Positions 2,994-51,964 of a stretch of 59,525 nucleotides of DNA are shown in pieces. How positions within the stretch are numbered: position 1 is the stretch's first letter; every line of letters starts with the position of its first letter. The stretch lies in the IMG/VR virus record IMGVR_UViG_3300037234_000303, positions 1 through 59,525 of that record. The stretch is one strand, 5' to 3'. The position numbers were made by a program, and so were the translations under genes. The notes under the pieces were generated by a model, which ran no database searches, was not told the origin of the DNA, and saw nothing but the letters and a program-made list of their open reading frames with translations. This DNA is from a virus.

Positions 2994-3217
2994 CGTCTGC
3001 CTTCACATGGCTGGTTATAGTTAGCACGGAGTTGGGACATGTTGATTGCTTCTTCCATGTCAATACCAAATCCGGTATCCAGTCTCCAACCGTACTTGGT
3101 TAGACGGATACGTATGGCTTGATTATCGTACTTGCAAAGCATGCAGAGTTTGTCAAACAAAGACTGAAGCATGCGTGTGCCAGTAGGGTCAATGATGTAG
3201 CTGAGATAAATGTTCAT
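2990..3217 (-). CDS. 75-residue protein of unknown function
   Basis: ATG 3217 is preceded by GGAG at 8 nt. The product is a soluble mixed alpha/beta-looking protein with Cys at about 25 and 28 (CMLC). Its stop overlaps the start of the zinc-ribbon gene. The segment MSQLRANYNQP resembles the end of the partial protein at the left edge. Confidence 0.65.
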   Translation of the reverse strand: MNIYLSYIIDPTGTRMLQSLFDKLCMLCKYDNQAIRIRLTKYGWRLDTGFGIDMEEAINMSQLRANYNQPCEGRR

Positions 3218-11265: not shown

Positions 11266-12411
11266 ATGTCCGCTACAAATTTTGCCAATCTGACCAGCCA
11301 CGAAAAAAAGGTTTGGTCTATGGACTTTTGGAACAAGGCTCGCAACATGTCTTTTCTGAACAAGTTCACCGGCGACTCTGAGGATTCACTCATCCAGCGC
11401 ATCACTGAGCTGAAGAAAGATGAGAAGGGTGCTCGCGCCGTCATTACGCTGGTTAACGACCTCGAAGGCGACGGTCGTGCCGGAGATCGTCAGCTGGCCG
11501 GTTACGAGGAAGCATTGACTTCCGAAGAGCAGGTCATCCAGATCGATCAGCTTCGCCACGCAAACCGGAACACCGGTCGCATGGCCGATCAGCGTACCAT
11601 CATCAACTTCCGCGAACAGTCTCGCAACAAGCTGGCCTACTGGCTGTCTGACCGCTACGACCAGATGGGTTTCTTAACCCTGTCGGGTGTTTCGTATGCA
11701 AGTCACACAAACGGTGCAGCTCGTGTCGGTTCTGACCTCGCACTGCTTGAGTTCGCAGCTGATGTTGTTGCCCCTACCAGCAATCGTCTGTTCACAGTCG
11801 ATAACGCTGTAACCAAGGGTCACATCTCGCTGACCAAGCTGAACAGTGACGCTACCTTTACGGTTGCGAACTCTGGCCTCAGCTGGCAGGCACTGGTTAA
11901 CCTGAAGGCAATGGCGAAAGAAATGTATGTTCGCCCCATCCGTACCAAGGATGGTGTTGACTTCTACCACGCATTCGTCACTCCGACTGCAATGGCCTCG
12001 CTGAAAACTGACTCTGATTTCATTCAGATGCAGCGGGATGCTGGCAAGCGCGGCGCGGGTAACGAGCTCTTCAAGGGCACCGACACGGTCTATGTAGATG
12101 GCATCGCCATCTCTGAATACCGTCACGTGTACAACACGAAGGGTCTCGCTTCTGGTTCACGCTGGAAGAATGACGGTACCGTTCATGGTTGTCGTGTTCT
12201 GTTCTGTGGCGCTCAGGCAATGGGCTTCGCCGATATTGGCACACCAACTTGGGTCGAAGAAGATCGCGATTTCGAGAACGTGAACGCTATTTCAACTGGC
12301 AAGATTTGTGGCTTCTTGAAGCCTCAGTTCGAAGGCAAGTTGACCGGCGGCATGGGTTCCGGGGTTGTTGAAGACTTCGGCGTAATCTGCCTCGATGTGG
12401 CAACCAACTAA
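11266..12411 (+). CDS. Major capsid protein, N4-gp56 family
   Basis: The 381-residue shell-forming protein. The pattern (SATNFANLTSHEKKVWS, NMSFLNKFTGDSEDSLIQ, VITLVNDLEGDGRAGDRQL and LLEFAADVVAP) fits the N4-gp56 major capsid family with an HK97-type fold. GGAGG is ideally placed. The codons look well optimised (CTG, GGT, CGT-rich) compared with neighbours. It is transcribed from its own consensus promoter and followed after 14 nt by the decoration-type gene. Confidence 0.92.
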   Translation: MSATNFANLTSHEKKVWSMDFWNKARNMSFLNKFTGDSEDSLIQRITELKKDEKGARAVITLVNDLEGDGRAGDRQLAGYEEALTSEEQVIQIDQLRHANRNTGRMADQRTIINFREQSRNKLAYWLSDRYDQMGFLTLSGVSYASHTNGAARVGSDLALLEFAADVVAPTSNRLFTVDNAVTKGHISLTKLNSDATFTVANSGLSWQALVNLKAMAKEMYVRPIRTKDGVDFYHAFVTPTAMASLKTDSDFIQMQRDAGKRGAGNELFKGTDTVYVDGIAISEYRHVYNTKGLASGSRWKNDGTVHGCRVLFCGAQAMGFADIGTPTWVEEDRDFENVNAISTGKICGFLKPQFEGKLTGGMGSGVVEDFGVICLDVATN

Positions 12412-34736: not shown

Positions 34737-35534
34737 ATGATTATGCACGTAATTACAGGAATACCAAGAGCAGGAAGCACACTGCTATGTAACATCCTTG
34801 CGCAGAACCCTGCGTACAAGGTGCAGCACACGTCACCATTGGCTACGTTTGTTAATGGCATAGCGCTGACTGCGAGCATATCCCCAGATATGCAAAACTC
34901 TTATATAGGTGACCAGTCTATGTACCAGCGCATGGTCAGCGCCACCAGAGCTTTTGCTGACGAGTGGAATACGTTTGACACAGAGGCTGAACTTGGGCAG
35001 ACCGTGTGGGACAAGAACCGGCTATGGACAGTCAACACAATGAGTCTGCAACAGCTGTACCCGGAGGCCAAGACGATCGTACTGGTGCGTGACCTGCGCG
35101 ACGTACTGGCGTCGATGGAGAAGCAGCACAGGAAGCAGCCGATGTTTGATGCAACCGTCGATGCCCAATACAAGACGGTATACGCCCGCAGCGCGTCACT
35201 CATGGAACCAGATGGCTTGGTCGGTGCCTGCGTACTCGGCGTCGAAGATATCATACGCAGGAACCATAAGAACGTCATCGTTCTCGCATATGAGGAGTTT
35301 GTCTACAACCCGGAGAAGGCACTGGCGTTGCTCGACGACTTTGAATATGACTTCGAGAACATCGTCAACACAGCGACGGACGTTGACGCACTGAACTACG
35401 ACAAGTTCCCGCACGAGGGCTCTGGCAAGATCGACAAGGGCTACGTTAATTCGTGGAAGGAATTTATAGACCCCGACCTCGCAGACCAGATAAGGTCGTG
35501 GTATCCATTCTACACAAAATCATTGGGGTATTGA
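34737..35534 (+). CDS. Sulfotransferase-family protein
   Basis: A predicted PAPS-dependent sulfotransferase of 265 residues. The 5'-phosphosulfate loop GIPRAGSTLLCNIL lies near the N-terminus and the 3'-phosphate motif IVLVRDLRDVLAS near residue 115; later YEEFVYNPEKAL and a C-terminal WKEF...WYPFYTKSLGY fit the family. Start ATG 34737 follows AAAGGAG; ATG 34743 is an alternative. It lies between two tail-fibre genes, so the substrate may be a virion or host-surface glycan or a tyrosine. The substrate is not determinable from sequence. Confidence 0.85.
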   Translation: MIMHVITGIPRAGSTLLCNILAQNPAYKVQHTSPLATFVNGIALTASISPDMQNSYIGDQSMYQRMVSATRAFADEWNTFDTEAELGQTVWDKNRLWTVNTMSLQQLYPEAKTIVLVRDLRDVLASMEKQHRKQPMFDATVDAQYKTVYARSASLMEPDGLVGACVLGVEDIIRRNHKNVIVLAYEEFVYNPEKALALLDDFEYDFENIVNTATDVDALNYDKFPHEGSGKIDKGYVNSWKEFIDPDLADQIRSWYPFYTKSLGY

Positions 35535-35535
35535 C

Positions 35536-36831
35536 ATGGCAAGATGGTACGACGTTTCTTTTGGCAGCACGAAGACCGGGCTAACTCCGACGTATCGTCA
35601 GTACGATAACACGGGTGCGGAAGTCGTTGCAGCCACGGCTACTGGTGTTGTGGAAGTTGGTGGAGGCGCATACGGTGTCCTCGTAGCCCTCGATGCAACT
35701 ACCACGGGCATCGAATGGGACTCGGGCACGGGTGTGTTCGCGCACGAAGACATTGTGCATCTCGGCAAGGTAGACGACATCTTGTTGGACACAGCGGCTA
35801 TGCAGCCCCTGACTGTCACCATGGACGGGAAGCTTGATACCATCGACACAGAGGTTGGTGTCATTGACACAGAGGTTGGTGTCATCGACGGGATCGTAGA
35901 TGACATCTTGGCGGACACAGCGGCAATGCAGCCCCTGACTGTCACCATGGACGGGAAGCTCGATACCATCGACACAGAGGTTGGTGTCATTGACACAGAG
36001 GTTGGTGTCATCGATGGCAACGTTGATCTCATCTTAGCAGACACAGCGGCGATGCAGCCTCTGACAGTCACCATGGACGGCAAGCTGGACACCATCGACA
36101 CTGAGGTTGGTGCCATCGACGGGGTCGTAGACGCCATCCTGCTGGACACAGATGCTATGCAACCCCTGACTGTCATCATGGACGGGAAGCTGGACGCCAT
36201 CGATACTGTCGTCGATACTGTCTTGGTAGACACAGCGGCAATGCAGCCCCTGACTGTCACTATGGATGGGAAGCTGGATACCATCGACACAGAGGTTGGT
36301 GTTATCGACGGGATCGCAGACACCATCTTGTTGGACACAGCGGCCATGCAGCCCCTGACTGTCACTATGGACGGTAAGCTTGACACCATCGACACAGAGG
36401 TTGGTGTCATCGACGGGATCGCTGATCTCATCTTAGCAGACACAGCGGCTATGCAGCCTCTGACTGTCACTATGGACGGGAAGCTCGATGATACCTTGGT
36501 AGACACAGCGGCCCTTATCGTCCTTGGTCAGGACATCCTGTGGCCTGTATCGCAAATGTCGCCTGTGGTCAACCTTATAATCCCGAAGCTCAACTCCATG
36601 GACGGGAAGCTGAATACCATCGACTCAGAGGTTGGTGCCCTCGATACCCGGCAGATTCTGATCGAGAAGATTCTCAGGAACAAGACTGAGACCGACCCCG
36701 TTACCGGGATAATGACTGTGTACGACGATGACAATGTAACTCCGTTGCTCACAGCCAATTTATATGATGACATCGCCGGAACGACACTGTACAACGGTGC
36801 TGGCGCGGATCGGAGGAACAGGCTGACATGA
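35536..36831 (+). CDS. Tail fibre with heptad-quantised tandem repeats
   Basis: A 431-residue protein. Residues 1-75 form a small N-terminal beta domain. Residues about 80-325 are seven copies of a module containing DTAAMQPLTVTMDGKL joined by variable numbers of IDTEVGV heptads, plus a degenerate eighth copy. The hydrophobic spacing indicates a trimeric coiled-coil stalk. A C-terminal domain follows (KILRNKTETDPVTGIMTVYDD, common in phage tail proteins). The antisense strand is also open across the repeats, which is a by-product of repetition. Its TGA overlaps the next ATG. Confidence 0.8.
   Translation: MARWYDVSFGSTKTGLTPTYRQYDNTGAEVVAATATGVVEVGGGAYGVLVALDATTTGIEWDSGTGVFAHEDIVHLGKVDDILLDTAAMQPLTVTMDGKLDTIDTEVGVIDTEVGVIDGIVDDILADTAAMQPLTVTMDGKLDTIDTEVGVIDTEVGVIDGNVDLILADTAAMQPLTVTMDGKLDTIDTEVGAIDGVVDAILLDTDAMQPLTVIMDGKLDAIDTVVDTVLVDTAAMQPLTVTMDGKLDTIDTEVGVIDGIADTILLDTAAMQPLTVTMDGKLDTIDTEVGVIDGIADLILADTAAMQPLTVTMDGKLDDTLVDTAALIVLGQDILWPVSQMSPVVNLIIPKLNSMDGKLNTIDSEVGALDTRQILIEKILRNKTETDPVTGIMTVYDDDNVTPLLTANLYDDIAGTTLYNGAGADRRNRLT
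35788..36525. repeat. Long tandem repeat array in tail-fibre gene, spaced in multiples of 21 nt
   Basis: The module beginning GACACAG(C/A)(G)GC starts at 35788, 35914, 36040, 36145, 36229, 36334, 36439 and 36502. Spacings are 126, 126, 105, 84, 105, 105 and 63 nt, all exact multiples of 21 nt (seven codons). Copies are nearly identical in DNA. Confidence 0.9.
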
Positions 36832-37162: not shown

Positions 37163-37474
37163 ATGGCGGCTAATGAGATACATTTAGAGGACATCGGAAC
37201 CATCTTTGAGATCACTCTGAAGGATGGCGACGCGATCGTTGACCTGCAGCTGGCCACCACGATGGAGATACTGTTCCTCCCGCCCAACAAGGTGGCAGTG
37301 ACACAGACAGCGGTGCACAAGACCGATGGCTCCGACGGCATCATACAGTATACGACCCTCGCCGACGACTTGGATCAGGTCGGCAGGTGGAAGATTCAAG
37401 CGCACGTAATTCTACCGGCTGGCGAGTGGAAGTCAGACGTCGCAGAGTTCAAGGTGCATAGTAATTTAACCTGA
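37163..37474 (+). CDS. 103-residue Ig-like/BppU-like tail protein
   Basis: ATG 37163 follows GAGGAGTAAGAT. The pattern (EDIGTIFEITLKDGDAIVD, then MEILFLPPN, then DLDQVGRWKIQAHVIL) matches the small beta-sandwich found in BppU-type baseplate/fibre proteins and similar phage head or tail attachments. It closes the receptor-binding cassette. Likely structural. Confidence 0.6.
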   Translation: MAANEIHLEDIGTIFEITLKDGDAIVDLQLATTMEILFLPPNKVAVTQTAVHKTDGSDGIIQYTTLADDLDQVGRWKIQAHVILPAGEWKSDVAEFKVHSNLT

Positions 37475-37500
37475 CGTATAATCAACCCGAGGACGGCGCG

Positions 37501-37896
37501 ATGCCCGAAACAGCAGAGATAAGAGGATTAGAAGTGCGAGTGGCTGTACTGGAAAAACAGCAGGCAACTTTTGAACGAAGTGCTATTGGATTTATGCAGC
37601 ACGCTGCGAACGAGGAGAACAGTATCCACGAGAGACTCGACGAAATTGTCTCGGAAGTCCACAAGATTCCCGAGATGGTTAGCAAGAAGATCAACGAGTC
37701 CCGCACCGAGATGCGGAACGAGATTGATAAGGCGCACCCGCGCAGGCACGAGGTAGTAACACCCCGGGCGCTGTATGCGTTCGCCGGTATTCTTGCCGTC
37801 GTGTTGGTAGCCGGGATGACAGTCACCATGGTCGTATGGGACAAGATTGACAACGCGACCCACGTGGAGCAGCCTTATGAGACCCCAACTCGCTGA
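37501..37896 (+). CDS. Coiled-coil protein with C-terminal TM segment (XhlA-like)
   Basis: A 131-residue protein with a charged coiled coil at residues about 5-85 and one TM helix at about 91-113 (LYAFAGILAVVLVAGMTVT), then a short polar tail. This layout resembles XhlA-type haemolysin/holin accessory proteins and also i-spanin-like proteins. It lies directly upstream of the amidase and overlaps its start, so it is probably part of the lysis cassette. Confidence 0.6.
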   Translation: MPETAEIRGLEVRVAVLEKQQATFERSAIGFMQHAANEENSIHERLDEIVSEVHKIPEMVSKKINESRTEMRNEIDKAHPRRHEVVTPRALYAFAGILAVVLVAGMTVTMVVWDKIDNATHVEQPYETPTR

Positions 37897-38371
37897 GAAC
37901 ATCCACAGTATAGTCATCCACTGCTCCGCTTCTCGCGAGGGCAGACCCTTGAGTTTGGCCAGTCTTAATGCCATGCACAAGCAGCGTGGCTTTGCCATGG
38001 TCGGTTACCACAGGGTCATCCTGCTTGATGGCAGCGTGGTTCAGGGTCGCCCATACACCCGGCAGGGTGCCCACGTCGCTGGAAATAATCTCAACACACT
38101 CGGGATCTGTATGGTTGGTGGCTTGGCAGAGGATGGCACCCCGAAGAACACATTCACGTCAGCACAAATGACAGCTCTGGCAGCGGAGCTGATCAATCTT
38201 AAGAAGCTGTTCCCGAGCATCCGCCAGATCACAGGCCACCGGGATTACTCGCCAGACCTCAACGGGGATGGTATCATCACACGTAATGAATGGATCAAGG
38301 AGTGTCCTTGCTTCGACGTTAAAGCTAAAATGGCCGAGTGGGGCATGACCCACTTCATGGAGAGATTATGA
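37877..38371 (+). CDS. T7-type N-acetylmuramoyl-L-alanine amidase (endolysin)
   Basis: Zinc amidase cleaving the glycan-peptide bond of peptidoglycan. ATG 37877 has GGAG 7 nt upstream; the longer TTG-start frame is not needed. In the 164-residue product the Zn ligands are His15 (IHCSAS), His121 (GHRD) and Cys143 (ECPCFDV), with Tyr44 and Lys141 matching the T7 lysozyme catalytic pair. Between His121 and Cys143 sits an EF-hand-like calcium loop (D127, N129, D131, G132, I134, E138). There is no signal peptide, so release needs a holin. The stop overlaps the next start. Confidence 0.92.
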   Translation: MRPQLAENIHSIVIHCSASREGRPLSLASLNAMHKQRGFAMVGYHRVILLDGSVVQGRPYTRQGAHVAGNNLNTLGICMVGGLAEDGTPKNTFTSAQMTALAAELINLKKLFPSIRQITGHRDYSPDLNGDGIITRNEWIKECPCFDVKAKMAEWGMTHFMERL

Positions 38372-38727
38372 ATACATACAGACAGGGCGAAGGCCTAGTA
38401 AAAACATTTCGTGGCACCGCGCCAACGTACCGAGCACCTGATGTCAACGGCGTCATCAAGCCATTGCCACCCGGCGAGATTGCTGGGTACGTCATGTTCG
38501 CACAGCACGAGGGCGACTCGGTCATTGAGAACATTGACATCACGCTGGTAAACGGCGCGTTCAGTGAGCCGCTCAACGTAGATCTGGTATCCCCGGGTAT
38601 GTGGAAGTACTGGTTCAGGACGGTTGACACAATCGGGCAGGAGTCAATAAATTCGGAGGTGTTGACCCTTGAGGTGTTGGCCCCTTTAGCAAACCCGAAC
38701 CCGCCGACCGGGATAGGCATCGCGTGA
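38368..38727 (+). CDS. 119-residue Ig/Fn3-like protein
   Basis: ATG 38368 overlaps the amidase stop (ATGA), with GGAGAGATT before it. The sequence looks like a single beta-sandwich (YVMFAQHEGDSVIENIDITL, then GMWKYWFRTVDTIGQES) ending in a Pro-rich tail. It may be a virion surface or tail component, despite its place inside the lysis cluster. No specific family was assigned. Confidence 0.6.
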   Translation: MNTYRQGEGLVKTFRGTAPTYRAPDVNGVIKPLPPGEIAGYVMFAQHEGDSVIENIDITLVNGAFSEPLNVDLVSPGMWKYWFRTVDTIGQESINSEVLTLEVLAPLANPNPPTGIGIA

Positions 38728-38834
38728 CAAGCTCGCAAAAAGTTTTGGTCGGAGTAGCAGTGGGTATAGGCCTCTCGCTTCTCGCACTCACTATCCTATA
38801 CGGCGCAGCCTTGTACGCATGGCTCGGAATCTAA
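38724..38834 (+). CDS. 36-residue single-pass membrane peptide
   Basis: GTG 38724 overlaps the preceding TGA (GTGA). Nearly the whole peptide is one hydrophobic helix (VGVAVGIGLSLLALTILYGA). It lies between the amidase and the holin, so it could be an antiholin or second holin. Too short for family assignment. Confidence 0.55.
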   Translation: MTSSQKVLVGVAVGIGLSLLALTILYGAALYAWLGI

Positions 38835-38856
38835 CAGGAACTGCACGGAGAATGAT

Positions 38857-39267
38857 ATGGGTTGGTTAACAGCAATAGGTGGATGGTTCATGGGTAGCTC
38901 CGGAGAGAAGAATGCGGAGCTTGCACGGGACACTATACGCGCCGCTGGCACGTGGATTGATGAGCAGAAGTTTACCCCCGAGGAGAAGTCGAAGGCGAAC
39001 CTCGAACTCGCAACGAAGTATGCGAACTTCGTGGATCAGTCGTTGCAGGAGAAAACCGAGCGGTCAAAGACGCGCAGGTCACTCGCTCTATTTATTATAA
39101 GGTTCGAAGGGTTCTTCTTGTTCATGTCAACGGTGATGTACAAGATTGATCCGGAATGGAGCAAGTATATCTACAAGATCGCAGTTGACTCGCCTTGGGG
39201 CTTGTTGACGTTGGGAGTCGGAGCGTTTTTCTTCGGCACGCACTTTCTGAGGGCTTGGAACAGATGA
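38857..39267 (+). CDS. Holin, GTA 3TM type
   Basis: A 136-residue protein with N-terminal MGWLTAIGGWFMG, a charged amphipathic middle (residues 20-70), then two clear TM helices at about 76-94 and 112-130. This matches the holin family with three TMs known from gene-transfer agents and phages. GGAG lies 6 nt before the ATG. Expected to release the amidase through the inner membrane. The following gene overlaps its stop. Confidence 0.75.
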   Translation: MGWLTAIGGWFMGSSGEKNAELARDTIRAAGTWIDEQKFTPEEKSKANLELATKYANFVDQSLQEKTERSKTRRSLALFIIRFEGFFLFMSTVMYKIDPEWSKYIYKIAVDSPWGLLTLGVGAFFFGTHFLRAWNR

Positions 39268-39524
39268 AAAACTTCATACAGAACTTGGTAGCAGGAATCG
39301 TGATGTTGCTGATGAGTTTGGCAGCGTTTGGCGCAACAGAATCCGGTGGCGCGTACAGGCCGGAGAACGTTTTACAGAAGGCCTACGGGCTCTGGGAGAC
39401 CGACGCGAACGGGGACTGGATGTTCTGTGCGGTGTTCCTGACAGAAGATGGGTTGGACATTGAAGCAGCTAAGTGCTGGGCTGTTCCTTATACAGTAACT
39501 GGCACAAAACAAGCGAGGATATAG
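39264..39524 (+). CDS. Secreted 86-residue protein with signal peptide
   Basis: ATG 39264 overlaps the holin stop. Residues 1-24 (MKNFIQNLVAGIVMLL, then SLAAFGA) form a classical signal peptide with predicted cleavage after AFGA. The mature part is a small domain with two Cys (about 54 and 70). It is probably periplasmic. Lysis or envelope role is inferred from position; it has no lipobox, so it is not a typical o-spanin. Confidence 0.6.
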   Translation: MKNFIQNLVAGIVMLLMSLAAFGATESGGAYRPENVLQKAYGLWETDANGDWMFCAVFLTEDGLDIEAAKCWAVPYTVTGTKQARI

Positions 39525-39526
39525 AC

Positions 39527-39709
39527 ATGGCGGGAAGTATAGAGGATTTTGCAGCACAGTTCGGGGTTCGTCCCAAGAAGAAGCCTCAGGGTCTACGGGC
39601 AGAGGTTGTAACCCCAGCTGAAGTTGCGGCGAGGAAAAAGAAAGTGGCTGACAAGCGCAGCCTCCGGCAGAAGATGCGCGACCGGCGCAAAGTGTTGGAC
39701 AACTTATAA
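39527..39709 (+). CDS. 60-residue basic protein
   Basis: ATG 39527 follows GCGAGGATATAGAC. It begins MAGSIEDFAAQFGVRPKKK and is Lys/Arg-rich with a helical C-terminus (RSLRQKMRDRRKVLDNL). May bind nucleic acid or be a small virion protein. No family was recognised. Confidence 0.65.
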   Translation: MAGSIEDFAAQFGVRPKKKPQGLRAEVVTPAEVAARKKKVADKRSLRQKMRDRRKVLDNL

Positions 39710-39724
39710 TCGAGAGGTGGTGTA

Positions 39725-40300
39725 ATGGTAGACAATTTTAGAGGCGGCGAACAGGCGGAAGACGAGGAAGTCAAAAAGTTTGACGCAAAGACACATGCGG
39801 TGACTATGATAGATTTGGTTCACCGGCTGACCCACGATGGGATGGTGTTTAGCTCAACGGGTAAGAACACTGGGCTACTCAACGCGGGCACGGCTGACTT
39901 CTTGTTCGTCACTGGCGCTAACGAGGTTCATTTGACGAAGGTCACAATGTTTCCCGGTGATGGTGACGTGGACTTCGTTGCGTACGAGGATACGGTGACC
40001 TCAGCAAATGGTGGAGAAGTGCCTTTGATTAACGTCAACCGCACGAGTTCCAAGGAACCGCTGGTCAAGCTGTACGGTGCACCGACTGTCACTACCCTCG
40101 GCGACATCATCCACACCACGTGGGCTGTCCCAACAGTTTCCTCGGGTAACGATTCGTCTGGTGTCATGAACGTCTCCCCGGGTGAGGAGTGGGTACTGAA
40201 ACCCAACAGCAAGTACCTGTTCAGGCTCACCAACAACAGCGGTGGTACCATCAGCTACGCGTGGGACATGCTCATGGTTGAGCTTACGTACGAGAATTGA
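39725..40300 (+). CDS. 191-residue beta-rich structural protein
   Basis: ATG 39725 follows GAGAGGTGGTGTA. The acidic N-terminus is followed by an extended beta pattern (residues about 40-190), e.g. HLTKVTMFPGDGDV and KYLFRLTNNSGGTISYAWDM. The latter motif is typical of phage virion proteins found in many structural clusters, for example small head or tail decoration proteins. Assignment as structural is inference. Confidence 0.65.
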   Translation: MVDNFRGGEQAEDEEVKKFDAKTHAVTMIDLVHRLTHDGMVFSSTGKNTGLLNAGTADFLFVTGANEVHLTKVTMFPGDGDVDFVAYEDTVTSANGGEVPLINVNRTSSKEPLVKLYGAPTVTTLGDIIHTTWAVPTVSSGNDSSGVMNVSPGEEWVLKPNSKYLFRLTNNSGGTISYAWDMLMVELTYEN

Positions 40301-40341
40301 TGCCCCACTGAAGCCGGTTCCTAGTTTAATTGGGTGGTTAT

Positions 40342-40620
40342 ATGAGTTGGAAAGAAAAACTAGATGAGTGTACGCACAGTGGCAAGTATCATTGGATTAC
40401 CTGCTGGGGTGGAGCGCATACTCTTGGAGTTTTAGCTTTAATGACGGTGGTGTTGTGGGTGGCACCACCGTTGTTGATTCCTAGTGCCGTGGTGGGATGT
40501 GGTGTGACCCTCGTGCATGAAGGCAAAGGGCCGGGAGACTTGCTAAATAGTACTGATAGGATACTGGACTGGCTGCTGCCTATTATAGCTGCTGTCACAT
40601 TTGTGATAATTTTCCAGTAG
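40342..40620 (+). CDS. Small membrane protein, last gene of the + strand arm
   Basis: ATG 40342 (MSWKEKLDECTHSGKYHW) is preferred to an upstream TTG. The 92 residues carry hydrophobic segments at about 27-56 and 74-90, separated by a polar loop (HEGKGPGDLLNS). It ends at the convergence point with the leftward genes. A holin-like or envelope role is possible but unsupported. Confidence 0.65.
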   Translation: MSWKEKLDECTHSGKYHWITCWGGAHTLGVLALMTVVLWVAPPLLIPSAVVGCGVTLVHEGKGPGDLLNSTDRILDWLLPIIAAVTFVIIFQ

Positions 40621-40628
40621 ATTATCAC
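40603..40628. terminator. Hairpin at the convergent gene boundary
   Basis: GTGATAAT (40603-40610) and ATTATCAC (40621-40628) are perfect complements around a 10-nt loop that contains the + strand stop; the minus gene stops at 40625. The RNA hairpin could act in both directions, but the stem is AT-rich and lacks long U-runs. Confidence 0.4.
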
Positions 40629-40789
40629 GCATAGAAGATATTCTCAGGGCTTCTGCCCACTTCGATCCCGGCGTGCCGGTTCCATACTTTCAGTTGGATA
40701 ATGACCCCACGGTCTGTGGGTAGGACTATGACCACAGGCCATAGGTTGTAGTGCCGGGTTTGATACCAGCATACTTTATAGAGCTTCAT
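40625..40789 (-). CDS. 54-residue protein of unknown function
   Basis: ATG 40789 overlaps the TGA of the upstream 27-residue peptide, so the longer frame from 40843 is rejected. The product begins MKLYKVCWYQTRHYN and looks like a small beta domain. It is the last gene of the leftward operon. Function is unknown. Confidence 0.6.
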   Translation of the reverse strand: MKLYKVCWYQTRHYNLWPVVIVLPTDRGVIIQLKVWNRHAGIEVGRSPENIFYA

Positions 40790-40869
40790 GCGAAGCTCAG
40801 GTAGAGGAGTACCACTGTACCGACGCCGACGCAAAATCCCCACAGCACTCCTGATTCGAATTCGTTCAT
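40786..40869 (-). CDS. 27-residue single-pass membrane peptide
   Basis: ATG 40869 overlaps the upstream stop and its TGA overlaps the next ATG. The peptide starts MNEFESGVLWGFCVG and ends in a hydrophobic helix (TVVLLYLSFA). The tight coupling at both ends supports its being a gene. Confidence 0.55.
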   Translation of the reverse strand: MNEFESGVLWGFCVGVGTVVLLYLSFA

Positions 40870-41030
40870 GACACCGGGGTTTCCAGTTTTGTAACGATTA
40901 TCCGTATGGCGTTGGGGAACGCTTCCTTGGTGACTTTCTTCGCTCGGGTCTTATTCTTTGCTATCAGAATTAGGGACGTGGTCGAGTCAACCCACGAGTT
41001 CCTATAGAATGAGACGCTGAAATATTTCAT
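40866..41030 (-). CDS. 54-residue basic protein
   Basis: ATG 41030 overlaps the upstream TGA. It starts MKYFSVSFYRNSWVDS and has a Lys-rich middle (AKNKTRAKKVTKEAF). The beta-alpha-beta look suggests a tiny ferredoxin-like fold. Function is unknown. Confidence 0.6.
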   Translation of the reverse strand: MKYFSVSFYRNSWVDSTTSLILIAKNKTRAKKVTKEAFPNAIRIIVTKLETPVS

Positions 41031-41269
41031 GTCAGTACCACTTCGCGCAACCGGGGTGAGCTCGGCTCGAACCGGCATTGGATGTGCGAGAGGTAGTCGA
41101 TCATCTTCTGCCTCATTACCCCAGACTCGGAGTTCAGTCCTTCGAGCATGTGCTCAAAGTCCTTGGCGTCAAACAGGATGGCATTGCAACCTTGTCCGCA
41201 GACAGCGCCGCCAATAGGTACCCACGTGGAATCGGCTACTTTGCCGTCTTCATATCTGAGTAACATCAT
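41027..41269 (-). CDS. 80-residue protein of unknown function
   Basis: ATG 41269 overlaps the stop of the HslV-like gene. It has Cys at about 24 and 28 (VCGQGC) and a helical middle (DAKDFEHMLEGL). It follows the protease directly and could be an accessory to it, but only position suggests this. Confidence 0.65.
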   Translation of the reverse strand: MMLLRYEDGKVADSTWVPIGGAVCGQGCNAILFDAKDFEHMLEGLNSESGVMRQKMIDYLSHIQCRFEPSSPRLREVVLT

Positions 41270-41688
41270 TTCTTTTTGCCCCTTCGTCTTACGGTTGTTT
41301 TGTCCCCGGTTCCGGGGTCTACCTTCCCTGCTATCAGGACTGCGTCCTCCGGGCCAGCGCCCGCGTGCATCGCACCAAGAGCTGCCTGTGCGCCCGAACC
41401 AATAGCTGCGAAGCCGTCGGTCAGTTCGAAGAACGATTCGTGTTGGTCAAAACATAGGATGCGGCCATCGCTGGTAAGGATCAGGGCTTCCACTTCCTTC
41501 ATACTCGGTGCCTCGCCCTTGGCTCCCTTCTTCCACCAGTTCACGAATATGATGCACTCGGTGTACGAGCCTGCTATGCCCACGCAGTTACCCTTGTGCT
41601 TGAATACCTTCTGGGCGTGGCACTTGATGTCGCTGGTCAGCAGGGTGTCCCCTGCCATCAGCTGGTGGTTGCAGGCAATAGTTGTCAT
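41266..41688 (-). CDS. HslV/proteasome-beta-like Ntn protease
   Basis: ATG 41688 has GGAG 8 nt upstream; a longer frame to 41772 is rejected. The 140-residue protein begins MTTIACNHQLMAGD, so after Met removal Thr1 is N-terminal as in HslV. Asp13 (in AGD) and Lys26 (in QKVF) match HslV Asp17 and Lys33. Later VGIAGSYTECIIF and FAAIGSGAQAALGAMHAGA match the proteasome-fold core. No HslU-type ATPase gene is seen in the window, so it may act alone, capture host HslU or ClpX, or poison host HslV rings. Confidence 0.85.
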   Translation of the reverse strand: MTTIACNHQLMAGDTLLTSDIKCHAQKVFKHKGNCVGIAGSYTECIIFVNWWKKGAKGEAPSMKEVEALILTSDGRILCFDQHESFFELTDGFAAIGSGAQAALGAMHAGAGPEDAVLIAGKVDPGTGDKTTVRRRGKKK

Positions 41689-41867
41689 TACTGTGCTCCT
41701 AGCATCCGCCAGAATCTTTGCATAAGAAAGGCTTGGGCTAAATGTGATGGCCCGGTCGCTGCCGCACGCCACCTGAAGTTACGGATCTCAACCTCCAGAG
41801 CTGTCCCGGTCACGTGACCGTAATCCCAATACTGGGTGGTGAACTCGTGGTTCTTGGGTGTGATCAT
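41688..41867 (-). CDS. 59-residue protein upstream of the HslV-like gene
   Basis: ATG 41867 overlaps the upstream TGA, and its TAA overlaps the protease ATG by one base (TAATG). It is aromatic- and Arg-rich (TTQYWDYGHVTG, RNFRWRAAATG). Function is unknown. Strict coupling suggests co-production with the protease. Confidence 0.6.
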   Translation of the reverse strand: MITPKNHEFTTQYWDYGHVTGTALEVEIRNFRWRAAATGPSHLAQAFLMQRFWRMLGAQ

Positions 41868-42031
41868 GCGTGTCTCAGGTCGTCGTCCATGCTTTCGATC
41901 AGCTCCTCGAGCTTGACTACTTCGGCGGCAATAGCGTCCGTGTCCACATCCGTGGAATCGTCGCAGGATTGTCCATCTTCATACTGATGGAACTCACCGT
42001 TTAGTATTCGGGCTGACAGTTTTGTGCTCAC
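41864..42031 (-). CDS. 55-residue acidic protein, GTG start
   Basis: GTG 42031 overlaps the preceding TGA (GTGA). It begins MSTKLSARILNGEFH, and the C-terminal half is very acidic and helical (EVVKLEELIESMDDDL). Function is unknown. Confidence 0.55.
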   Translation of the reverse strand: MSTKLSARILNGEFHQYEDGQSCDDSTDVDTDAIAAEVVKLEELIESMDDDLRHA

Positions 42032-42246
42032 GTGGTGACCACTTCGGACTGTGTTTCAATCCAGACTCGCGCGCCACACTTCAAAGGCGCGTGTGGCGAG
42101 TGCACGATCTTGCTCGGACCCTGTATCTCCGCTGTGTGACACTTCCGGTTCTGTTTGTAGTCCTTCACCGTCAGAACTGGGTCGTTCGTCCCGTGGATCC
42201 GGTTGTGTTTTATAACGTGCTGATTGACGTGAATAATAGTCTTCAT
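42028..42246 (-). CDS. 72-residue small protein
   Basis: ATG 42246 overlaps the MazG-like stop. The sequence suggests a small beta barrel (DPVLTVKDYKQNRKCH, then GARVWIETQSEVV) rich in His. The overlapping frame 42056-42286 lacks coupling and is rejected. Function is unknown. Confidence 0.6.
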   Translation of the reverse strand: MKTIIHVNQHVIKHNRIHGTNDPVLTVKDYKQNRKCHTAEIQGPSKIVHSPHAPLKCGARVWIETQSEVVTT

Positions 42247-42524
42247 TGTATGGTTCCCGTTCTGCGTGCAATAACGATGTGATCAAGGACTTTATTCTCC
42301 TTTGCCATGGTGGGACTCGGCACGCCGCCTATTGCCTGCGCGTCCTTTAGCATCTTGACGATGGTCGCAACGTCACAGAGCTCGTCGTACAGTTTTCTTG
42401 CGTTGGTGCAGTTGGTGCCCGGTTTCATGTCCATTTGTCCGAAGCGCAGGAACTTGGTGGTAGCCTGTATTACTTCCGCGCACTCCTCGGCCAAACAAAC
42501 CAAAAGGTGTTCTTGTACGTTCAT
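42243..42524 (-). CDS. MazG-like nucleotide pyrophosphohydrolase
   Basis: A 93-residue all-helical protein with EECAEVIQATTKFLRFG near residue 13 and YDELCDVATIVKML near 45, the ExxE...ExxD metal-binding pattern of MazG/HisE-like pyrophosphatases. It would hydrolyse (d)NTPs or alarmone-related nucleotides. Phages often carry such enzymes to adjust host nucleotide pools. ATG 42524 overlaps the upstream stop. Confidence 0.75.
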   Translation of the reverse strand: MNVQEHLLVCLAEECAEVIQATTKFLRFGQMDMKPGTNCTNARKLYDELCDVATIVKMLKDAQAIGGVPSPTMAKENKVLDHIVIARRTGTIQ

Positions 42525-42724
42525 AGTTGTGGCTCCAATACTTTCTTCAGCCGTGAATAGATATCCACGATTCTTTGTGTCTTTATACCCGGCCGCATTT
42601 CAGTGATCTCATCGACTGCATATTGAGCGGCGCTGCGGAAGTCCTCAATTATTTCTGCCTGCAGAGTTAGGAGCCCCTTGAAATTCTCTATCTCTTGGCG
42701 GAGGCCTATACTTGTGTCCGTCAT
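42521..42724 (-). CDS. 67-residue helical protein
   Basis: ATG 42724 overlaps the upstream TGA. The product is predicted helical throughout (LRQEIENFKGLLTLQAEIIEDF, described here as residues about 9-30) and ends KKVLEPQL. No motif was recognised. Confidence 0.6.
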   Translation of the reverse strand: MTDTSIGLRQEIENFKGLLTLQAEIIEDFRSAAQYAVDEITEMRPGIKTQRIVDIYSRLKKVLEPQL

Positions 42725-42933
42725 AGTGGTCGCTCCAAAGCGTCTGGTAGGTTGGCGAATATCTTGTGGTTAACATACGACCCGTTGTCAAGGTCGGCAG
42801 TCTGCCACCCGAGGCGGGTTGACCACACGTGACGGTCATCTCGCACAAACGATGCGCCAGCCCTCGGGCTCCTTATAACAGCGTAGCCCAGTTTGCGTGC
42901 CAGCGTTTCATCCTGTTCGTGAAAGACTGCCAT
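42721..42933 (-). CDS. 70-residue protein of unknown function
   Basis: Starts at ATG 42933, just after the stop of the upstream gene. It contains GYAVIRSPRAGASFVRDD, then WSTRLGWQTADLDNG, a compact mixed fold. It ends with an ATGA overlap. Function is unknown. Confidence 0.6.
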   Translation of the reverse strand: MAVFHEQDETLARKLGYAVIRSPRAGASFVRDDRHVWSTRLGWQTADLDNGSYVNHKIFANLPDALERPL

Positions 42934-42934
42934 G

Positions 42935-43111
42935 CTAGTTCCTGAACATAATTGTGTTAAGAATATCCACAGCGCATTGCTCTATTGAATGGGCGTTGTG
43001 ATCGATGCTTACACCATCTTCGGTTAGCTCAATGAAATAGCGCCCGTCGTCAGTTTTGTACATCTTTACGCTATCGGCGTTATTAAGCAGTTCCTCTAAT
43101 AAGTCGTCCAT
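42935..43111 (-). CDS. 58-residue acidic protein downstream of ligase
   Basis: ATG 43111 overlaps the ligase stop by one base (TGATG). It begins MDDLLEELLNNADSVKMY and is acidic with a beta-like middle (GRYFIELTEDGVSI). Function is unknown. Confidence 0.6.
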   Translation of the reverse strand: MDDLLEELLNNADSVKMYKTDDGRYFIELTEDGVSIDHNAHSIEQCAVDILNTIMFRN

Positions 43112-44016
43112 CAGTCGAACTCCTTTCTGAATCCTTTGAAGACCGGAAAGCGAGGCAACGTCTTGGCACCAGATGGCTGGTACGTGAACGTCACCGTCGC
43201 TCCCATGTACTTCTTCCGGTCATTCCAGATTCCTTGACGTGTTATGTCGTCGAAACCTGTCCCCACCCTCAACTCTCCCCATTCTGTGTCCAGAACGAGC
43301 GATCCGAGTGTATTCATCGGAATCATGTTCTCTTTATTGGTCGGACGGTCAGTTTTTCCGATCTTGTTCTTTTTTGCCTCGTTGGCGTTGTGCGTACGCT
43401 CATCAAAGCCTATGACCGTACCCTCGGCATCGGAAAAGAACTTAATCTTCACCAGCCAGCCCTGACGCAGTGTGGAGCGACCTTGCTTATATTTGCCGTC
43501 CAAACTGCGCAACATTGCCCCTTCGTAGCCATCAAGCAGTGCTTGCTTGGCAAAAGCGTTGATGGCGGCCATGGTGGTCAGTTTCGTGTGTTCCACGATG
43601 TGAACACAGGTGGGCATCTCCTCAGCGTATTCCATGCGCCACAGTTCGTCGTACCGGAACTGGAACTCGTGGTCCGGAGTGCGGAAGAAATCGAATACGT
43701 GGAACTTGAAATTTGGTGTCCCGGACTTCCGCATCACGTCACCTTGGATCTCGTTGAAGGTGCGCTGTGTTCCGTCATCGTTGTAGGTCATGACTTCCCC
43801 ATCGAGATATTCTGGAGCGAACTGGGCGAGCTGTGTACGGATATGATCGTTCGGTATTGGCTTGAACACACGGCTACAAGGTCCATGTACCGGGTGAGTC
43901 AGGACGCGGATGCCATCGAGCTTCACGGACACAAGGTACGGAAGCATAGCCTCGAGGATCTCGTAGTCGTTCTCGTTCTTGGGTGCCGCGCTAGCGAGCA
44001 TTGGTTTCTTAATCAT
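43111..44016 (-). CDS. ATP-dependent DNA ligase
   Basis: A 301-residue single-chain ligase of T7 type. The adenylated lysine is Lys32 in KLDGIR. Motif III is FHVFDFF, motif IV DGYEGAMLR (about 177-185), and motif V LVKIKFF. The C-terminal OB-type domain ends VTFTYQPSGAKTLPRF. It seals nicks during phage replication. It starts at ATG 44016, overlapping the preceding gene by one ATGA unit. Confidence 0.92.
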   Translation of the reverse strand: MIKKPMLASAAPKNENDYEILEAMLPYLVSVKLDGIRVLTHPVHGPCSRVFKPIPNDHIRTQLAQFAPEYLDGEVMTYNDDGTQRTFNEIQGDVMRKSGTPNFKFHVFDFFRTPDHEFQFRYDELWRMEYAEEMPTCVHIVEHTKLTTMAAINAFAKQALLDGYEGAMLRSLDGKYKQGRSTLRQGWLVKIKFFSDAEGTVIGFDERTHNANEAKKNKIGKTDRPTNKENMIPMNTLGSLVLDTEWGELRVGTGFDDITRQGIWNDRKKYMGATVTFTYQPSGAKTLPRFPVFKGFRKEFD

Positions 44017-44279
44017 GGGTGTAGTCCCGGTAGTCCTGTCATAAGGGTGCGCATGTCCAGCTTCTTGGGTTTCCGGCGCTTGATGTTCTTGGCAAGCCTT
44101 CTTTCTGCTTCTGTATGGCCATGAATGAACGTCCGAACAAACCGTTCTATGATCGTGATGAGTTGGCGCGGACGCGACTTGGTCAAGGTATCTTGCATGA
44201 TGATTTGGTTGAAGTCAGCAATTACGCGGCCATCAGCGGTCAGCGCCTCGATCCTTATTCTGTATTCAGTGGTGATCAT
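44013..44279 (-). CDS. 88-residue protein upstream of ligase
   Basis: ATG 44279 lies shortly after a GGAGCACC stretch. The product has a beta-rich start (MITTEYRIRIEALTADGRV) and a basic C-terminal half (RRLAKNIKRRKPKK). It may bind DNA or RNA. The stop overlaps the ligase ATG. Confidence 0.6.
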   Translation of the reverse strand: MITTEYRIRIEALTADGRVIADFNQIIMQDTLTKSRPRQLITIIERFVRTFIHGHTEAERRLAKNIKRRKPKKLDMRTLMTGLPGLHP

Positions 44280-44421
44280 GCTTTGGTGCTCCTTGTGGGA
44301 ATAGCATCTCGTGAAATCTTCGCTCCAGATCGTGGAGCAGTATAGCTACCTTCGCTGACTCGGCACGTTCTGCGCGGGTCAGCCCGAGGGCTTGCCCTTC
44401 ATATTTATCGGCCTCCGACAT
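44266..44421 (-). CDS. 51-residue helical peptide
   Basis: ATG 44421 lies inside the end of the upstream gene, and the frame runs 14 nt into the next one. It starts MSEADKYEGQALGLTRAER and ends in HDHH. It contains the next gene's ribosome binding site. Function is unknown. Confidence 0.55.
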   Translation of the reverse strand: MSEADKYEGQALGLTRAERAESAKVAILLHDLERRFHEMLFPQGAPKHDHH

Positions 44422-44836
44422 GGTATTCCTCCAGTTCTTTGTCAGCGATGTCCAGCCTCTTATGCAGCGAGTTCATACACTGCAGGAAGTTGCTGTACGT
44501 CACCCAGCGGACTGAGGGCGTCTCACACGGTTCGTGGATATGGTAGCTCAGTTTGGGTTTGAGAGCTTTCTCGTACTCTTCGCACTTGACCTTCAGTTGC
44601 TTGAGCGTGTACTCAAGTCCAACATTGTCGTCCTTGAGATGCACGCACTTCTTCGCCCAGTCTTTCTCGCGATCCAGAACAGCTCGAAGTTTGACCTTGA
44701 GGTTGTCCACATGCCGAGTTAAAATCTCCTCGCGCTTGGTTGCCTGCCCAAGATGAGCGAGCGCTATGTCAATACTAGATTCCAGTCCTGAGTTCTGGAG
44801 ACGCAGGCCTTGTATTATTTGCTCTTGTGGAGTCAT
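44405..44836 (-). CDS. 143-residue coiled-coil protein
   Basis: ATG 44836 is preferred to ATG 44863 because AAGGA lies 8 nt before it. Residues about 10-95 are heptad-rich coiled coil (REEILTRHVDNLKVKLRAVL); the C-terminus has a Trp/Tyr-rich segment. Its first 62 nt overlap the end of the upstream gene in another frame. Function is unknown. Confidence 0.65.
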   Translation of the reverse strand: MTPQEQIIQGLRLQNSGLESSIDIALAHLGQATKREEILTRHVDNLKVKLRAVLDREKDWAKKCVHLKDDNVGLEYTLKQLKVKCEEYEKALKPKLSYHIHEPCETPSVRWVTYSNFLQCMNSLHKRLDIADKELEEYHVGGR

Positions 44837-48852: not shown

Positions 48853-49234
48853 GAGCTTTACCTATGAAGTCCTGAAAGTCTCCTGAGTGCCATTTACTGG
48901 CAAACTCAGGGTCAGCGATTATGTCCTGTGCTCCCGGTGATATCCACCCGGTGCCCAGCTTCCGCTTGGCCTTGGCTGATGGCATCAGGCAGTACACGTG
49001 TTCCCACGCATACATGTGCAGCTGGTAGGGCCGCGAGTTGCACTGCGAGTGGACACGGAGCTCACCGTTCGTTGGTGAGATGTGCACAGTGTCATGGCAG
49101 AACCGGTAACCGATGGCTTCGGGTATATACATACCCACGACGAAGCGACTCTTGCCTTCGTCTTTGAGGATGAAGGCCAGTAGCTCCCGGTCCATGTCGT
49201 GCGGGATGAGCATGCCTTTGTCTTTAACTAACAT
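48836..49234 (-). CDS. Paralogue B of a tandem gene pair, 132 residues
   Basis: ATG 49234 (MLVKDKGMLIPHDMD) is chosen over the longer frame to 49279 because it aligns with the start of paralogue A and lies after GGTGG. The core SRPYQLHMYAWEHVYCLMPS aligns with SRNLHLYAWDNVIAMVPS in paralogue A. It overlaps the rIIB-like gene end by 11 nt, so it is translated with the rII pair. Function is unknown. Confidence 0.7.
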   Translation of the reverse strand: MLVKDKGMLIPHDMDRELLAFILKDEGKSRFVVGMYIPEAIGYRFCHDTVHISPTNGELRVHSQCNSRPYQLHMYAWEHVYCLMPSAKAKRKLGTGWISPGAQDIIADPEFASKWHSGDFQDFIGKAHVASL

Positions 49235-49973
49235 AAACGGCCACCTTCTCCACGTCTTCCTTGTTAAGCTGCTTGACAACAGTGTACTCGCAGGTACGCA
49301 TCTTCGAGTTCTTGTAGTCGGTGGGCACGGACACCACGTTCATCGGATGTACCTTGATGAGCATGATTGTGTTTCCGCCGATCGAGTTGCCGAGGTAGCC
49401 ACCTGAGCAGACATGCAATCCAGCGGCGCAGGTCTTGTTGCGATCAGCTACCACCTTGGCACGATCCATCTTGATGGTCTTGCCCGGGGAGTTGTCAAAC
49501 GTCCCTGACCAGCCGTCCTTGAAGTCGGACCTCACCTTCTTGTAGGCGAGGAAGTGACCGTCGATAGTGACCGGCAGGCTGTTGGTTTCCAAGAATCCGT
49601 ATAGATCCTTTTTTGCCTCTTCGGACGGATTTAGGTTGATATTAGCCAAAAAAGTGACCATTGGCCCCGGGTCAAATCCCTGCTCGCGCATGGATATGAT
49701 GCGGTCAACCAGCGCGTTGTGCAGAGGTCTCCACTTGTCAAACTCATCGTCGCGGTGCATGATAGTCCGGCCTTCAACTCTGAGTGTCTGCTCGTCGTTG
49801 ACCCAGTCCTTGATGTCCCTGTCCTTGTTGATGAGTGCAATAGCCGTCGTCTCATCACCCCGACGTAGCGCGATCAGAACTTCTTCTGCGCATGCGTGGT
49901 CTTCCAACGAGCAAGTAGCAATTGTGTTGTTGGTGATGATCGTTACGGACTGGTTGTTTATTACATGAGCCAT
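49224..49973 (-). CDS. rIIB-like protein
   Basis: A 249-residue protein adjacent to and coupled with the rIIA-like gene, as in T4. The region from about 130 (GFLETNSLPVTIDGHFLAYK, then DRNKTCAAGLHVCSGGYLG) matches the conserved C-terminal half of rIIB proteins. In T4, rIIA and rIIB block RexAB-type exclusion and act at the host membrane; the mechanism is not settled. ATG 49973 shares a base with the rIIA-like stop. Confidence 0.85.
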   Translation of the reverse strand: MAHVINNQSVTIITNNTIATCSLEDHACAEEVLIALRRGDETTAIALINKDRDIKDWVNDEQTLRVEGRTIMHRDDEFDKWRPLHNALVDRIISMREQGFDPGPMVTFLANINLNPSEEAKKDLYGFLETNSLPVTIDGHFLAYKKVRSDFKDGWSGTFDNSPGKTIKMDRAKVVADRNKTCAAGLHVCSGGYLGNSIGGNTIMLIKVHPMNVVSVPTDYKNSKMRTCEYTVVKQLNKEDVEKVAVYVS

Positions 49974-51964
49974 TAGCTTCTCCGGTGTATCAATGTGAGG
50001 ACGTCTTCTACGTATTTTGTCTTGCTGGTCTGGTAGCCATAGAGGCTATCCACGATCGCGAGCAGTCCATAACCCTTGACGATCTTCTTGTCTCGGTTTT
50101 CAATCTGCAAGTCAGTCATCGGCTTCAGCTTCCAACCCAACAGGTCTGTGATGGCGACACGGTGTCTGTACAACGTCTGCGTGACGACGTGGACTTGCGC
50201 TTCGATAGTGAGCGCGAGTTCTTTCCACTTCTTCTTGTCCACGTTATGCTGAAACGCATTGATCCAAGAGATAGTGGATCTGTGTAAGAACCCTGCGTTG
50301 TAGCGCTCTTCTGTGTCGATGACTTGGATCATCCGAGCACGTGTATGTTCCTGCAGAGTTGGCAGTGTGATGTGCTTCTGCTTGCGGCGCAGAGACTTCG
50401 GTATACCGACTATGTTCACACCTTCGAATGCGCTCAATAACTCGTAGGACTTCCGATCTTCCGGGTTGTCCCAAGGCTCGGAGCCACCGCCACTCAATGG
50501 AGCCCAGCAGGTATTCTCAAGAGCGTTGATCTCTTCGAACGAGCTGGTCAGGCTCTTCCACTCGCGGCTGTTCGAGCGTAGCTTGAGCTGTACCTTGTTA
50601 CGGGAGACTGACTTGTAGGTCACGTCATCCTTGTCCGGCATAGGCAGGCTCTCGGTGGAGGACCAGTCCTTCTGCTCTGAGTCCTTGAGGAACTTCTCCA
50701 TCATCTTCATGTCGTTGAACAGGATGTATTCCTTACCACGGTCGCTCAGTAGCAGGGTCTTCATTTTGATTTTGTTGAACTTGACAGCTGGGTCATAGAA
50801 GATAACTTCACTGTCCAAGGCGTCTTGTACACTGAGCGACATGTATCGAGCGAATGAGATGGAGAGAGCGTCGGACTTGGTGAGGCTGAACTGGCCTGAT
50901 ACTTTACAGCAGTGGCCATCCCGCCCGTATTCGAAGTCACGGATGAGTTCCTTCTTCTTCCACGACAGGGTGTCGAAGTCCACGTTGGCTTGGTTGGACA
51001 GAGTGATGCCCATCACACAAGCTTCGAGGAATGTCTTGCACCCAGCGATTTCATCCGAGGTATCCTTCGCGATCCGGTCTGTCACGCGCTGGAGCACTTC
51101 AATGATTTGTCTCTGGGACTTCTTATCGTACGACAGGGCTTCACGTGAGGCCTGAATGTCGATGTCGCCAATGCCACAGAAGATGTCCAAGCGTGCATTG
51201 TTCAGCAGCTTGTAGAATTTGGTCTGTATCTCTTGGTTGAGTGCTGACTTGTCCAGCCTGTAAGCAATCGGACCCATGATGACCTTCGGGTGGCTGGCGC
51301 TGGTTTCACGCATCCCGTACTCGTCTCTCTTCAGTGAGTACTTGACGTTGTACACTTCGATGTCTGGTGCCTTGTAGGAACCTGCGGGGAAGTAGCTGAG
51401 CACAGCTTTGGCTTTGTTGGAGAACGTGTAGAAGTCTTCCTGCTTAACAGGAATGATGTACTGAATACCACGGTCTTCGTCGGACTCGCAGTGCTCCACC
51501 ATCGCGATGGAGGGTTGCCCGTCTTCTTGGATCATGCATAACCATGTGTATTTGACTCCTTCCCAGAACGAGAGGAGCGTGAATGTGTCCGTGTAACTAA
51601 ACGGCGTCTTTGAACCCAACCCTAATCCACCAATTGCTTCGTTGTCGTGATTTTTGTCGGATCCAAAGAACGTCGTATAAAGCTTTTGGATGGTTTCCGG
51701 AGACATACCGATACCGTAGTCCCTGATTTCAAACGCAGGGTTCATGCGGCTAGGAAGAGTAAGTAGAAACGGGCGTTCCTCTTTGGCCTGCTTGTGGGCA
51801 TCGAGCGCGTTGGCACTCAGTTCCCGGACAATGGCGAGAGGCTTGTCGGTGTACAAGTTCGAGGACAGAATCTGGAACGCCTTTGCAGACGCTTCAATCG
51901 TGAAGCCAGTTGGTTTGGCCGTGAACGTTGTCTCGATATTACGCTTTTGGATATTCGTTTCCAT
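49973..51964 (-). CDS. rIIA-like GHKL ATPase-domain protein
   Basis: A 663-residue protein with an N-terminal GHKL (Hsp90/histidine kinase-type) ATP-binding domain: ELSANALDAH (Asn52), EIRDYGIGMS (Asp82) and GGLGLGSKTPFSY (about 112-124). The long C-terminal region is helical and of unknown structure. It is slightly shorter than T4 rIIA. Together with the rIIB-like gene it forms a likely membrane-associated host-defence-antagonising pair. GGAG lies upstream of ATG 51964. Confidence 0.88.
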   Translation of the reverse strand: METNIQKRNIETTFTAKPTGFTIEASAKAFQILSSNLYTDKPLAIVRELSANALDAHKQAKEERPFLLTLPSRMNPAFEIRDYGIGMSPETIQKLYTTFFGSDKNHDNEAIGGLGLGSKTPFSYTDTFTLLSFWEGVKYTWLCMIQEDGQPSIAMVEHCESDEDRGIQYIIPVKQEDFYTFSNKAKAVLSYFPAGSYKAPDIEVYNVKYSLKRDEYGMRETSASHPKVIMGPIAYRLDKSALNQEIQTKFYKLLNNARLDIFCGIGDIDIQASREALSYDKKSQRQIIEVLQRVTDRIAKDTSDEIAGCKTFLEACVMGITLSNQANVDFDTLSWKKKELIRDFEYGRDGHCCKVSGQFSLTKSDALSISFARYMSLSVQDALDSEVIFYDPAVKFNKIKMKTLLLSDRGKEYILFNDMKMMEKFLKDSEQKDWSSTESLPMPDKDDVTYKSVSRNKVQLKLRSNSREWKSLTSSFEEINALENTCWAPLSGGGSEPWDNPEDRKSYELLSAFEGVNIVGIPKSLRRKQKHITLPTLQEHTRARMIQVIDTEERYNAGFLHRSTISWINAFQHNVDKKKWKELALTIEAQVHVVTQTLYRHRVAITDLLGWKLKPMTDLQIENRDKKIVKGYGLLAIVDSLYGYQTSKTKYVEDVLTLIHRRS

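Follow-up and report, generated by a model that had tools for sequence, protein, structure and literature searches.

A PPH-family proteasome-like Ntn hydrolase gene in a variable region of a viral contig related to Pseudomonas phages

Proteasome-like proteins of phages have been described as the PPH family, whose members are about 140 residues long, occur in Caudovirales, and lack both helix H2 and a propeptide (Fuchs, Alva and Lupas 2021, PMC8665760). The published members, with WP_042125023.1 as representative, keep the catalytic equivalents of Thr1, Asp17 and Lys33 and of the oxyanion Gly47 (PMC8665760). We found no report of biochemistry, activity or an experimental structure for any member of this family. 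Among proteins of the same fold, HslV receives the tails of HslU in a docking pocket that comprises Phe54, Phe57, Gln114 and Ala79/Lys80 (PMC6429459). The betaproteobacterial proteasome homolog BPH has no unfoldase, has lost the HslU residues, and did not bring down HslU in pull-downs; it bound proteasome inhibitors but showed no activity on standard peptides or casein (PMC5777263).

Here, we describe a PPH gene in a linear viral contig, IMG/VR record IMGVR_UViG_3300037234_000303 (positions 1 to 59,525), the whole of which, 59,525 nucleotides, we call the window. Its kin are the Pseudomonas phages KPP25 and phiR18 (portal 38% and DNA polymerase 37% identity), along with a 67-kb phage, G007, to which identity is 75% for the major head protein (MCP), 70% for the polymerase, and 47% for RIIA. 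Genomes of the relatives measure 64-67 kb, and the right edge of the contig cuts through a helicase gene; the contig is a linear fragment, and part of the genome lies beyond it.

The gene, its fold and its family

Three overlapping ORFs of 80, 140 and 59 amino acids lie at 41027-41867, all on the minus strand, as an initial annotation of the sequence had described. The 140-residue product of the middle ORF (41266..41688, minus strand) matches PHROG 1040, "peptidase HslV family", over residues 1-135 (E 1.5e-30); on this profile evidence the ORF is genuine and the match is not due to chance. A Shine-Dalgarno AGGAG (41696..41700, minus strand; ctAGGAGcacagtaATG) stands 5' of the ATG (41688-41686), and the protein begins MTTIACNHQLMAGD, with the nucleophile Thr directly after Met1. 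With an ATG and its Shine-Dalgarno immediately before this Thr, there is no propeptide. The start MTTIA is found in 98 of 107 PPH sequences, a count partly biased by the search peptide. A longer reading from a GTG at 41772 (168 amino acids, with a 28-residue propeptide) was dropped, since a good Shine-Dalgarno precedes the internal ATG and the relatives nearly all start with MTTIA.

Used alone as a query against viral contigs, the window PPH found no relative, and its relatives there were recovered using the CcrSC and Kikimora sequences as queries. The resulting alignment (A2) joins the window PPH to 81 proteins from IMG/VR contigs (n=82), to which it is 26-40% identical; a mixed alignment (A1) gave no usable conserved block. 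Relatives are mostly 139-170 residues long. The family is widespread, tblastn with two PPH relatives having retrieved overlapping sets of 380 and 318 phage records. The Pfam Proteasome model scored the window PPH at 17.8 bits, below its cut-off of 22.4, and no NCBIfam model, that of HslV included, matched it at E 0.01, while among family members 35 match the archaeal proteasome beta model of NCBIfam and 18 the HslV model.

The residues expected of a threonine hydrolase are in place. Thr1, Asp13 and Lys26 (numbered after removal of Met), which the initial annotation had likened to the HslV catalytic set, are indeed present and are kept in 82/82 sequences of A2. The GSG motif is likewise retained, as had been noted, with both glycines in all 82 sequences and the serine in 82% of them. 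The oxyanion-hole glycine (Gly37 with Met, Gly36 in T1 numbering) is present in the window PPH and in 66% of A2. Counted with Met, the window residues are Asp14, Lys27, Gly37, Ser98, Asp124 and Thr127, the last two belonging to an Asp-x-x-Thr-Gly stretch (Asp124, Thr127, Gly128) that we take to resemble the Asp166/Ser169 motif of proteasome beta.

AlphaFold2, run with A2, models the monomer with a pLDDT of 95 and a pTM of 0.89. The model is a beta sandwich of two beta-sheets in which helix H1 (42-53) is followed directly by a strand (66-71); there is no H2, and both H3 and H4 are shortened. In line with this, the conserved Gly40 and the GSG motif are 57 residues apart in PPH and 75 apart in HslV. 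Foldseek placed BPH (E 7e-9), HslV (E 1e-8) and proteasome beta subunits as the top matches of the model, and a sequence profile search of the PDB returned BPH (E 1.4e-11) and HslV (E 2.7e-11). For residue comparisons we used hhalign, since adding HslV to the PPH alignment with MAFFT proved unreliable; PDB entry 1e94 served to confirm the E. coli HslV sequence.

Because every published PPH feature that could be tested was found (length, triad, oxyanion Gly, loss of H2, no propeptide), the window protein, assigned by the published description and PHROG 1040, is a new sequence within an already known and common phage family. In sequence and predicted fold it is about equally close to BPH, proteasome beta and HslV, and is better called PPH than HslV. 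Of the earlier label, "phage HslV/proteasome-type protease", the proteasome-type Thr-hydrolase survives, and the HslV name gives way to that of the PPH family, which has no H2.

Genomic setting

The gene lies in a region (37973..44710) in which almost no gene has a match in G007, though the flanking structural and replication genes do: of window genes 38-60 only gene 56 (42935-43111) was matched, and weakly, whereas G007 retains, in syntenic order, the window's structural genes (37163-37896) and its replication genes (from about 44.8 kb). PPH itself is absent from both KPP25 and G007. Since these relatives do without it while the flanks are syntenic in G007, PPH is, by gene-content comparison, an accessory gene in a variable region of this phage. 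Its absence from these relatives suggests that it is dispensable for the virion plan that the lineage shares. Within the window it is placed towards the 3' end of a long operon on the minus strand, which includes replication genes as well, and lysis genes are close by.

The variable region holds lysis genes, PPH, a DNA ligase and many small ORFs, and one of its proteins partly matches a nucleoside triphosphate pyrophosphohydrolase family. Outside it, 34737-35534 (plus strand), among tail or receptor-binding genes, encodes a 265-residue protein whose N-terminus (ITGIPRAGSTLLCNIL) looks sulfotransferase-like by eye. The 431-residue product of 35536-36831 (plus strand) is made up of repeats, each a few tens of residues long (DTAAMQPLTVTMDGKLDTIDTEVGVIDG).

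The small neighbours of PPH are both orphans. The 59-residue ORF (41688..41867, minus strand) lies 5' of PPH and shares 1 nt with it as a stop/start overlap; it has no PHROG or PADLOC match, no tblastn match in 50,697 phage records, and against Pfam only a sub-threshold one. The 80-residue ORF (41027..41269, minus strand) lies 3' of PPH, which it overlaps by 4 nt; it has no tblastn match in the same 50,697 records, none in 8 related contigs and none in PADLOC, and its sole PHROG match has an E of 0.28. Around 105 other PPH genes no ORF corresponds to either neighbour. The initial annotation had proposed that the two might be an adaptor or an inhibitor translationally coupled to the protease, a role that we discarded, since the searches turned up no homologue of either and neither is seen next to the other PPH genes. 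The overlaps themselves are real, and we also discarded them as special evidence of coupling, since 1-4 nt overlaps are ordinary in the local operon (10 of the 12 junctions between window genes 47 and 59). A 4-nt overlap with the upstream ORF is found in 61/105 PPH relatives, the upstream ORFs being of many different kinds.

Absence of a partner ATPase

The initial annotation reported that the window has no unfoldase gene even though the catalytic set is kept. The observation holds: searches with the Pfam AAA_2 family (HslU/ClpX type) and the general AAA family gave no match in the window, but as the contig is incomplete, absence from the phage genome is not proven. The lack is no peculiarity of this phage. 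AAA_2 was found in 0/15 records (14 GenBank PPH phage records and the window contig), the same search being positive in 14/14 control genomes; the general AAA family exceeded its Pfam cut-off in 4 of 15 PPH-carrying records. Moreover, the hhalign comparison places Ile46 and Val49 of PPH opposite Phe54 and Phe57 of HslV and leaves HslV 66-86 largely unpaired. With no AAA_2 in the PPH phages tested and the HslU-docking residues absent or replaced, a missing ATPase is to be expected, and from these genomes and alignments it looks like a rule of the family and not an oddity of this phage.

The puzzle of the missing ATPase is thereby removed, the PPH family generally going without one, and the question becomes what a proteasome fold that has neither H2 nor an unfoldase cuts. 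Even the label "peptidase" is unproven for PPH, since its close relative BPH is inert on standard substrates.

An ATPase-like gene of another kind is present in the window: a RIIA homolog (49224-51964, minus strand; PHROG 612, E 2e-104) has a GHKL ATPase-like domain and is not an unfoldase. The 249-residue protein that follows it is RIIB-like by eye.

Possible function and comparison with known systems

In light of PPH being an accessory gene, what might its product do? We think it probable that PPH is an accessory, ATPase-independent Ntn hydrolase, for which host takeover is likelier in this phage than capsid maturation. Met1 would be removed by the host methionine aminopeptidase, Thr being a small second residue, and the exposed Thr1 would then serve as the N-terminal nucleophile, which Lys26, together with Asp13, would activate. 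The predicted protein is a minimal beta-type core, with two beta-sheets, H1, short H3 and H4, and no H2; it is probably homo-oligomeric and need not resemble the HslV dodecamer. Comparative genomics supports its working without an AAA+ unfoldase, and for want of one its substrates would be peptides that are unfolded, flexible or specifically recognised, not folded proteins fed to it at the expense of ATP. Most likely it would target a host or defence-related protein in the infected cell, cleaving or modifying it, because the gene is accessory and is placed with replication genes, towards the 3' end of the long minus-strand operon. It is gene position and patchy presence, and these alone, that make host takeover the most likely role. 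If PPH is a host-directed protease, it would be a useful addition to the known takeover tools of phages.

More tentatively, PPHs as a whole may be processing enzymes that are specific to phages, need no ATP and have a defined protein target: a protein of host defence or quality control or, where the gene sits between scaffold and capsid genes, a virion precursor. Such an enzyme could have a quaternary form unlike those of known proteasome homologs, because H2 is gone.

Non-degradative chemistry is one way in which PPH could depart from a protease: a proteasome fold may serve a specific ligase or amidase, as in connectase, a monomeric ligase. In both PPH and connectase the H1/H2 helix pair differs from the usual one (PMC8665760), and the inactivity of BPH on standard substrates would fit such an enzyme. 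We consider this unlikely, given that the AlphaFold2 model of PPH has no connectase-type two-helix insertion and that no connectase is listed among the 60 top-ranking sequence matches in the PDB.

An enzyme with the fold and catalytic residues of HslV but no ATPase of its own might instead recruit host HslU, or another AAA+ unfoldase, to form a hybrid, ATP-dependent protease that the phage redirects, as the initial annotation had suggested. The alignment speaks against such hijacking: the loss of the largely unpaired region, which helps form the HslU-docking pocket, and the replacement of both phenylalanines (pocket as in PMC6429459) are joined by the shortened Gly40-GSG spacing and by the lack of HslU in BPH pull-downs, which leaves the hybrid improbable.

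We also doubt that PPH processes a phage precursor, such as a scaffold or head protein, in the manner of a prohead-type protease. In some relatives PPH does sit within the head module: it comes directly after a scaffold or head-assembly gene in the IMG/VR loci L029, L030 and L037 (PPH at 3001, 1947 and 3001), with MCP downstream in L030, and lies after TerL and before the portal gene in L060 and L066. A recognised head or packaging gene is found within about 3 kb of PPH in 41/105 loci, a share that we estimate to be only roughly the chance level in small genomes. A general linkage to the head module was discarded, as this share is not clearly above chance and the tree shows 20 label changes; head-labelled PPHs are scattered on it, yet more clustered than when the labels are shuffled. 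PPH adjoins lysis genes in Sciku and Proteus RS51pmB, and in BarnCat a capsid maturation protease is annotated in addition to PPH. PPH thus appears to be a mobile accessory gene, with a separate head-associated role possible in some lineages. In the present phage the cleavage of a scaffold, another earlier proposal, finds no support: PPH lies about 29 kb from MCP (11266-12411), on the opposite strand, and is absent from close relatives that have the same capsid.

Many of the bacteria that PPH phages infect have hslVU, and PPH shares the fold of HslV, so that it might disable host HslUV by co-assembly or unproductive binding of HslU; this last suggestion of the initial annotation is very improbable, as a pure poison needs no Thr1, Asp13 or Lys26, yet these are kept in 82/82 sequences, and the docking and ring-contact elements are altered in PPH.

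Host takeover by an ATPase-independent PPH remains our preferred reading, and the known systems resemble this locus to different degrees. In the Salmonella jumbo phage pSal-SNUABM-04, HslV-like genes have likewise been reported without HslU, but that phage is a jumbo phage and carries two copies annotated as HslV (PMC7823757). HslV (ClpQ) shares the fold, the catalytic residues and the GSG motif; it differs in its length of about 175 residues, in keeping H2 and the HslU-docking residues, and in having HslU as its partner, and it lacks the proteasome-like Asp-x-x-Thr-Gly of the window PPH. BPH is the best profile and fold match and, like PPH, has no known partner ATPase; in contrast to PPH, it is ~40 residues longer, has H2 as well as a long acidic pore loop, is encoded by a bacterial gene, and forms a 14-mer. 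Closest of all are the other members of PPH/PHROG 1040, which share with the window protein a length of 140 residues, the lack of a propeptide, the triad, the oxyanion Gly, the loss of H2, and an occurrence in tailed phages without an unfoldase, and which differ from it after TTIA, where they usually have YRDG and the window protein has CNHQ.
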